From: Actinomyces sp. B33
Lineage (GTDB): Bacteria; Actinomycetota; Actinomycetes; Actinomycetales; Actinomycetaceae
Assembly: GCF_028437565.1 (NCBI RefSeq)
Contig: NZ_JAMRYR010000003.1
Span: 248,001 to 312,000, forward strand
Reading direction: 5' to 3'
DNA: 64,000 bases
Positions 52,300 through 53,166 of the stretch are shown here, in pieces. The stretch's first letter is position 1; each line of letters starts with the position of its first letter. Made by a program: the position numbers and the translations under genes. Below the pieces are notes generated by a model that was given only the letters and a program-made list of their open reading frames with translations, searched no databases and was not told the origin of the DNA.

Positions 52300-52349
52300 C
52301 CACGCGGCGGGGGCGCAGGATCCTTCGATCCTGCGCCCCCGCCGCGTGG
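52300..52349. terminator. Perfect 23-bp hairpin, probable bidirectional terminator
   Basis: Arms 52300-52322 and 52327-52349 pair with no mismatch around a CTTC loop. It starts 10 nt after the stop of the 71-aa gene and lies 83 nt beyond the 3' end of the tRNA gene on the other strand, so it can end both convergent transcripts. Confidence 0.85.
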
Positions 52350-52432
52350 TGCGTCGCACCGGCGACTCGCGCCGCCGCGTCCGGCGTGGGCCCTCGTCGG
52401 CGCTAGAATCGGCGTGAAGAGCCGACTGGCGG

Positions 52433-52506
52433 TACCCCGAGTGGGATTCGAACCCACAACAAGCCGGGTTTGAGCCGACCGCCTCTGCCAGTTGGGCTAT
52501 CGGGGC
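52433..52506 (-). tRNA. tRNA with CAA anticodon (Leu, UUG codon), short variable loop
   Basis: Reading the minus strand, a complete 74-nt cloverleaf folds: acceptor GCCCCGA/TCGGGGT (first pair G-U), a 3-bp D stem GCC/GGC with GG in the loop, anticodon stem GTCGG/CCGGC with loop CTCAAAC, a 5-nt variable loop TTGTT, T stem GTGGG/CCCAC with loop TTCGAAT, and A as discriminator base. The 3' CCA is not encoded (CCG follows). Anticodon CAA reads the Leu codon UUG, but normal bacterial tRNA-Leu has a long (class II) variable arm and this one does not. A tRNA-Leu gene in this place between pyk and pdtaR is familiar from other actinobacteria. Confidence 0.88.
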
Positions 52507-52572: not shown

Positions 52573-53166
52573 ATGACTGCAGAAGCAACGACCGAGCCGC
52601 GCCGCGTGCTCGTCGCCGAGGACGAGGGACTGATCCGTCTGGACATCGTCGAGACGCTGACGTCAGCCGGCTTCGAGGTCATCGGGGAGGCCGCCGATGG
52701 CGAGGAGGCCGTCCAGCTGGCCCTCGAGCTCGAGCCCGACCTGTGCGTCATGGACGTCAAGATGCCGAAGATGGATGGGATCACCGCTGCGGAGAAGATC
52801 CTCCAGGAGCTGTCCTGCGCCGTCGTCATGCTCACCGCCTTCAGCCAGACCGAGCTCGTCGAGCGCGCCCGCGACGCCGGCGCGATGGCCTACGTCGTCA
52901 AGCCCTTCAGCCCCGCCGACCTGATCCCCGCCGTCGAGATCGCCTTCTCGCGCCACCAGGAGATCGAGTCCCTCGAAGAGGAGATCGCCGACCTGTCGGA
53001 CCGCTTCGAGACCCGCAAGCTCGTCGACCGCGCCAAGGGCCTGCTGATGAAGAACATGGGGATGACCGAGCCCGAGGCCTTCCGCTGGATCCAGAAGACC
53101 TCGATGGATCGGCGCCTGTCGATGCGCGAGGTCGCCGACGCCGTCATCGACCAGGTCGAGGACTGA
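52573..53166 (+). CDS. pdtaR: ANTAR-domain response regulator, PdtaR-like
   Basis: 197 residues. A receiver domain (about 10-125) has the acidic pair in VAEDEGLIR, the phospho-acceptor Asp in CVMDVKMPKMDG (about residue 58), the switch Thr in MLTAFS and the Lys in YVVKPFSPADL. A coiled-coil linker leads to an ANTAR RNA-binding domain (about 140-195) with RAKGLLMKNMGMTEPEAFRWIQKTS. ANTAR proteins act as antiterminators by binding paired hexanucleotide RNA loops. It is the counterpart of Rv1626. No histidine kinase is next to it. Its promoter is back to back with that of the tRNA gene. Confidence 0.95.
   Translation: MTAEATTEPRRVLVAEDEGLIRLDIVETLTSAGFEVIGEAADGEEAVQLALELEPDLCVMDVKMPKMDGITAAEKILQELSCAVVMLTAFSQTELVERARDAGAMAYVVKPFSPADLIPAVEIAFSRHQEIESLEEEIADLSDRFETRKLVDRAKGLLMKNMGMTEPEAFRWIQKTSMDRRLSMREVADAVIDQVED

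Follow-up and report, generated by a model that had tools for sequence, protein, structure and literature searches.

A class I-shaped tRNALeu(CAA) gene in Actinomyces sp. B33 and the spread of short-armed leucine UUR tRNAs in Actinomycetes and phages

Introduction

Bacterial tRNA-Leu, tRNA-Ser and tRNA-Tyr are class II tRNAs, whose long variable arm helps keep their synthetases apart. According to the available sections of a 2023 identity review, tRNALeu keeps this arm except in animal mitochondria (PMC9976931), and a review of non-canonical tRNAs, in its accessible passages, places tRNALeu in class II (PMC7609411). For E. coli, the same sections of the identity review name A73, the A15-U48 pair, G18G19 and A20a as leucine identity elements, report that long-arm sequence and folding do not correlate with leucylation, and describe variants from which the anticodon and variable arms are missing and which stay active with E. 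coli LeuRS (PMC9976931).

The human mitochondrial tRNALeu(UUR) also lacks the long arm, with a leucine identity given in those sections as essentially A73 and A14 (PMC9976931), but it is organellar and loosely folded, whereas the tRNA reported here is encoded on a bacterial chromosome, forms a full cloverleaf and has class II siblings. A mycobacterial tRNALeu(TAG) shares the short variable loop and the actinobacterial setting; in the available part of its report, however, it is a cluster-encoded additional copy, accompanied by a normal isoacceptor (PMC6582537), whereas ours is the only CAA gene found. The general notion of class I "takeovers" of class II functions has been put forward, with trees that mark short-armed leucine tRNAs, but the passages concerned, as far as they were accessible, contain no lineage, isoacceptor or identity test of the kind given below (PMC2265525, PMC2474678). 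In M. tuberculosis, tRNALeu-2, 3 and 5 are named as the long-loop ones, which implies that the other tRNALeu lack the long loop, although the available text gives no anticodons and does not treat the short ones (PMC11541572). Within the open-licence literature, which omits most subscription papers and was available in part, we found no description of class I tRNALeu(UUR) in bacteria; databases hold such genes, and the class and its spread seem undescribed.

Results

The window analysed here, a 64-kb stretch of Actinomyces sp. B33 DNA, contains a sole tRNA gene, called by ARAGORN as tRNA-Leu(caa) at 52431-52506 on the minus strand and matched by Rfam RF00005 at 52433-52506 minus with 53.4 bits (gathering score 29, E 9.3e-10). 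Read directly, the 74-nt gene (52433..52506, minus) encodes a 7-bp acceptor stem, GCCCCGA/UCGGGGU, with G1-U72 as its first pair, followed by U8 and A9 and by a D arm (52481..52497, minus) of the form GCCC-AACUGGCAGA-GGC, which pairs 10-25, 11-24 and 12-23 and carries the leucine-type loop AANNGGNAGA; C13 can additionally pair with G21, A22 then being bulged. A 5-bp anticodon stem presents the loop CUCAAAC with anticodon CAA (C34 A35 A36; 52470..52472, minus), as ARAGORN also assigns it. A 5-nt variable loop, UUGUU (52458..52462, minus), with U48 facing A15, stands where class II tRNAs have the long arm, and the T arm, GUGGG-UUCGAAU-CCCAC, has a 5-bp stem. CCA is not encoded, since the genome reads CCG after A73. 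ARAGORN, Rfam and direct reading thus confirm the structure proposed in the initial annotation in every detail named there (minus strand, length of 74 nt, anticodon, length of the variable loop, first pair, discriminator and lack of an encoded CCA).

Some tRNAs have 8/4 or 9/3 acceptor branches, in which the acceptor stem has 8-9 bp and the T stem 3-4 bp; the window tRNA, with 7 and 5 bp, is not of this type. Its variable loop falls within the 4-5 nt of class I and short of the at least 10 nt of a class II arm, a limit taken from the available part of the review of non-canonical tRNAs (PMC7609411). A73 (52433..52433, minus) corresponds to a main leucine determinant in E. coli, as given in the identity review sections (PMC9976931). 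The gene encodes a real, functional-looking, class I-shaped tRNALeu(CAA), which we infer to be expressed and charged; it is not a class II tRNA.

The single-sequence fold was modestly better than shuffles (z -1.15), and a sigma-70 promoter/terminator scan around the gene gave no match. Downstream of the tRNA, positions 52300-52349 form a hairpin whose 23-bp stem is perfect and whose loop has 4 nt (-58.6 kcal/mol, z -11.4); it has no T run and is perhaps a shared transcription stop. On the other side, separated by 66 nt and divergent from the tRNA, lies a 197-aa ORF (52573..53166, plus) with response regulator receiver and ANTAR domains (Pfam), which we take to be pdtaR, as did the initial annotation.

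The assembly from which the window comes (2.28 Mb, 11 contigs, 100% complete) yielded 48 Rfam tRNA matches, including five leucine tRNAs: the CAA and UAA genes are both class I-shaped and alike, and the CAG, GAG and UAG genes are class II. The second, class II tRNA-Leu(CAA) that the initial annotation proposed looking for was found neither in the Rfam/ARAGORN set nor by a class II UUR pattern, which gave 0 matches over the genome. Wobble may let the UAA tRNA read UUG as well, in which case the CAA tRNA would not be the sole UUG reader. A single LeuRS scored above the family cut-off, its three pieces spanning 5-842 of the 843 positions of the model, and five weaker matches fell below the cut-off. 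The class II siblings share with the window tRNA the D loop AANNGGNAGA, A73, a leucine anticodon and leucine codons, but have G12-C23, G13, G9 and the long arm where the window tRNA has C12-G23, C13, A9 and the 5-nt loop.

Aligned with 18 tRNAs of its own genome, the window tRNA scored highest against Leu(UAA) (44.0, the next being 26.1), although by gap-free identity, a ratio that leaves gaps out, the Arg, Gly and Thr tRNAs equal or exceed Leu(UAA) over shorter aligned stretches. On the alignment scores of these 18 tRNAs, derivation from another isotype by anticodon change is not favoured. The pairing of short CAA and UAA genes recurs by pattern in Schaalia odontolytica, Paraoerskovia sediminicola and Pauljensenia hongkongensis, in which the CAA and UAA genes match the class I pattern and nothing matches the class II UUR pattern, while Arthrobacter sp. 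zg-Y844 and Varibaculum cambriense combine a class I UAA with a class II CAA by the same patterns. Trueperella bernardiae has a class II CAA, and its UAA gene fits neither pattern.

Given that the note made from the sequence had left open whether the tRNA is an unusual leucine acceptor, carries another amino acid or has a non-decoding role, we examined what UUG stands for in genomes with this locus. Genes for pyruvate kinase, PdtaR, DNA polymerase I and a neighbour of pdtaR, presumably thioesterase-like, were aligned, and for each given codon of class I-type loci we recorded the residue that class II-type loci encode opposite it by codons other than TTR. We kept matches of at least 35% identity and columns with at least 5 references, and called a column conserved at or above 70% in class II-type loci. 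TTG occurred in 261 cases in class I-type loci, 158 of them on conserved columns, and 150 of these 158 were leucine columns, the other eight being I (4), V, A, W and F (one each); counted as distinct columns, 79 of 87 from 31 loci were leucine. The 38 TTA cases included 22 on conserved columns, 21 Leu and 1 F, and TTG and TTA had the residue profile of CTG and CTC. Of the compared genes, those in the window contribute 4 scorable TTG codons, one of them in a fully conserved leucine column, so the weight of the test lies with the relatives, in whose class I-type loci UUR codons are rare (TTG 4.7 and TTA 0.7 per 1000 codons).

With leucine at 150/158 conserved TTG cases, UUG still means leucine in these lineages, and recoding of UUG is rejected on the codon alignment. 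A reassigned UUG, with the tRNA carrying another amino acid, would fit the odd tRNA shape, yet it runs against both the TTG and TTA columns and the conservation of A73 and the leucine core in all 45 distinct bacterial sequences described below, making it exceedingly improbable. The idea of charging with another amino acid was thereby contradicted, whereas that of an unusual leucine acceptor gained support from the leucine codon columns and the retained leucine determinants.

Covariation was measured on two class I sets, one bacterial with 45 distinct Leu(UUR) sequences (81 before duplicates were merged, a few genes having been collected twice) and one viral with 161 distinct sequences. In the bacterial set the acceptor stem paired in 100% (shuffle mean 86%) and the anticodon stem in 97% (63%); the corresponding viral values were 98% against 57% and 93% against 54%. 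A73, a position that the collecting pattern left free, was present in 45/45 bacterial and 161/161 viral sequences. A15-U48, G18G19 and A20a, the E. coli leucylation elements, occur in the window tRNA and in 45/45 bacterial sequences, although the pattern fixed AA, GG and A20a, so that across the set only U48 counts independently; among the viral sequences U48 is found in 158/161. C13, G21 and A22 were likewise present in 45/45 bacterial sequences, most of whose loci were gathered without use of these positions, L130-L159 having been gathered by a pattern that fixes G21 and A22. Positions 13 and 21 are pairable in 92% of the 161 viral sequences (shuffle mean 77%, maximum 81%), and the class II leucine tRNAs of the genome have G13 where the window tRNA has C13. 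The gene does not look like a tRNA pseudogene, which would have broken stems and a drifting anticodon: the stems covary, and CAA is constant in relatives.

Among 80 pdtaR loci from titled records, 76 carried a tRNA-Leu(CAA), 49 of class I and 27 of class II, as set by ARAGORN length with part of the CCA included (75-79 nt for class I, 82-87 for class II); with the window added the counts are 50 and 27. The fetched stretches of L073, L078, L088 and L093 showed no tRNA-Leu(CAA), that of L093 ending early upstream of pdtaR. All 76 ARAGORN tRNA-Leu genes at these loci have the anticodon CAA. On this evidence, the earlier view that a conserved place beside pdtaR argues against random decay held in that the place is conserved (76/80), although class II occupies it in 27/80; the anticodon persists in relatives (76/76), the short variable loop in 49 only. 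Nothing like a degenerating copy with a changing anticodon was seen, CAA being constant at the 76 loci and the stems kept.

The conserved divergent neighbour, 66 nt away, could also suggest a non-decoding, regulatory tRNA-like RNA tied to pdtaR. Against this reading, which we consider very unlikely, no other CAA tRNA was found in the genome, and an ordinary class II tRNA-Leu(CAA) sits in the same place at 27 of the 80 loci, so the place looks like the home of the isoacceptor and not a link to pdtaR. A non-decoding role, as initially considered, thus found no support, the stems being maintained as well. The leucine-decoding reading is the one we carry forward: the window tRNA is very probably a working elongator tRNALeu of class I shape, the only CAA tRNA found in its genome, which would decode UUG as leucine and be charged by the single LeuRS.

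The PdtaR of the window is 93-94% identical to those of the Schaalia cardiffensis and Actinomyces culturomici loci, and a tree of PdtaR and PolA groups the window among these, which points to a probable Schaalia-like actinomycete. This tree comprises 65 of 81 rows, those above 250 residues, and was built by a quick method, with some long rows of unsure place and no fixed root; it requires at least 6 class changes, 5 of them forced by starred branches. The class II Promicromonospora and Myceligenerans nest in a group that is mostly of class I, suggesting a reversion to class II. The orientation of the gene differs with class: class I is 48 minus and 1 plus, class II 12 minus and 15 plus. As a separate observation, three records (L033, L037 and L077) take odd places in this tree, Xylanimonas cellulosilytica 352_XCEL and Sanguibacter keddieii 250_SKED adjoining Schaalia odontolytica and Sphaerisporangium cinnabarinum falling among Cellulosimicrobium, and from these positions their names look wrong.

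Beyond this locus, a looser class I Leu(UUR) pattern with class I spacing built in matched 106 of 394 sampled Actinomycetes genomes in 48 of 138 genera, with 0 matches for the reversed control; by hand count, CAA occurs in 34 of these genomes and UAA in 87, including 15 with both. The pattern for class II UUR tRNAs matched 79 of the 394, and 227 fit neither pattern; the census is thus incomplete and the two counts are minima. Both class patterns occurred in 18 genomes, always with different anticodons by hand comparison, and none had both classes for one anticodon. In a phylum sample, a stricter class I pattern matched 17 of 119 genomes, all YAA; this sample overlaps the class sample in 10 genomes, and the other 109 give 11 matches. 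Class I spacing with NAG (CUN) anticodons was rare in Actinomycetes genomes, at 6/197 against 106/394 for UUR.

A distant search for short tRNA-Leu genes listed 129 records, and the six phage or plasmid stretches that we opened each held at least one class I-shaped tRNA-Leu (TAG, CAA or TAA). Known carriers include a prophage of M. abscessus, phages of Streptomyces and of mycobacteria, a Felixounavirus and, from pattern scans, many IMG/VR contigs. The combination of D-arm motif and class I spacing is tied to leucine anticodons in viral contigs. When the anticodon was left free, at least 120 stretches matched, and the 80 loci listed comprised 81 hits (79 distinct), all 81 with A73 and a leucine anticodon, covering all six types (TAA 32, TAG 30, CAA 13, GAG 3, AAG 2, CAG 1). 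With only A36 fixed, the matches listed were 81 hits in 80 loci, all 81 YAA and all 81 with A73. A looser D arm with YAA fixed gave 167 pooled viral hits, of which 121 keep C12, C13 and GAG at 21-23, the rest being other D arms.

Discussion

A long variable arm counts as typical of tRNALeu and is used as a class marker; both UUR isoacceptors found here are without it, and of 394 sampled Actinomycetes genomes 106 have one or more UUR tRNAs that lack it. Charging of the window tRNA most likely falls to the single ordinary LeuRS, which would act through A73 and the D-loop and core elements A15-U48, G18G19 and A20a, the long variable arm not being needed. In the three-dimensional core that we infer, the C13-G21 pair would close a class I-like arrangement with one bulged A. 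A class I UUR tRNA beside class II CUN tRNAs under one LeuRS constitutes a natural experiment in which the purpose of the arm becomes testable. UUA-based regulation of the bldA type is known in bacteria, and class I Leu(UUR) bears on such regulation. It matters, too, for isotype checks in tRNA annotation and for which tRNAs can be reached by arm-dependent toxins such as MenT3, as described in the available part of a report on these toxins (PMC11541572).

What drives the class switches may be arm loss in place or replacement by copies from phages or neighbours. If the long arm was deleted in place from an ancestral class II tRNA-Leu(CAA), several times, under a LeuRS that did not need it, one would expect the two classes to share locus, anticodon and leucine D loop, as they do, and the repeated class changes on the PdtaR/PolA tree fit, as does the tolerance of LeuRS for a missing arm in the identity review sections (PMC9976931). 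However, the class I forms of distant species share C12-G23, C13 and mostly A9, a set not expected from repeated simple deletion, and the orientation of the gene differs between the classes, leaving deletion less likely than not.

Replacement is the other route, in which class I tRNALeu from phages or mobile elements repeatedly took over from host class II UUR tRNAs at the same locus. The short tRNA-Leu genes of phages and IMG/VR contigs, the class changes and their forced branches on the same tree, and the finding that none of the 394 genomes holds both classes for one anticodon all agree with it. Against it, 42 of the 45 distinct bacterial class I sequences lie nearer to a bacterial than to any of 169 viral sequences (1 tie, 2 nearer a virus), and a tRNA tree of 71 columns shows 13 label changes, of which 2 are forced, with the direction not fixed; phages could equally have acquired the short genes from hosts. 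We regard this replacement as rather unlikely. Doubtful, and more speculative again, is a wider scheme in which a separate class I tRNALeu lineage, recognisable by C13-G21 and a bulged A22, circulates between phages and actinobacteria and repeatedly displaces the essential class II UUR tRNA at a fixed place, possibly escaping toxins that grip the long arm; if true, a core translation gene would be swapped in whole.

Several further observations concern the phage and plasmid genes themselves, which phage records annotate as plain tRNA-Leu. A Felixounavirus-group coliphage (OM386664.1) has three class I-shaped tRNA-Leu genes, TAG, CAA and TAA, at 1501, 1996 and 2737, while its tRNA-Ser and tRNA-Tyr retain long arms, and a plasmid of the cyanobacterium Calothrix (AP018275.1, 1494-2340) encodes three short tRNA-Leu (CAA, TAG, TAA) and a tRNA-Ser. 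TAG is frequent among the listed viral hits (30/81), while class I CUN is rare in Actinomycetes genomes. Finally, L293, L302, L307, L324 and other viral records hold class I-spaced tRNA-Leu(YAA) with other D arms (for example AGGCAAA..GGCAAAGCC), which are perhaps further short-arm leucine types.
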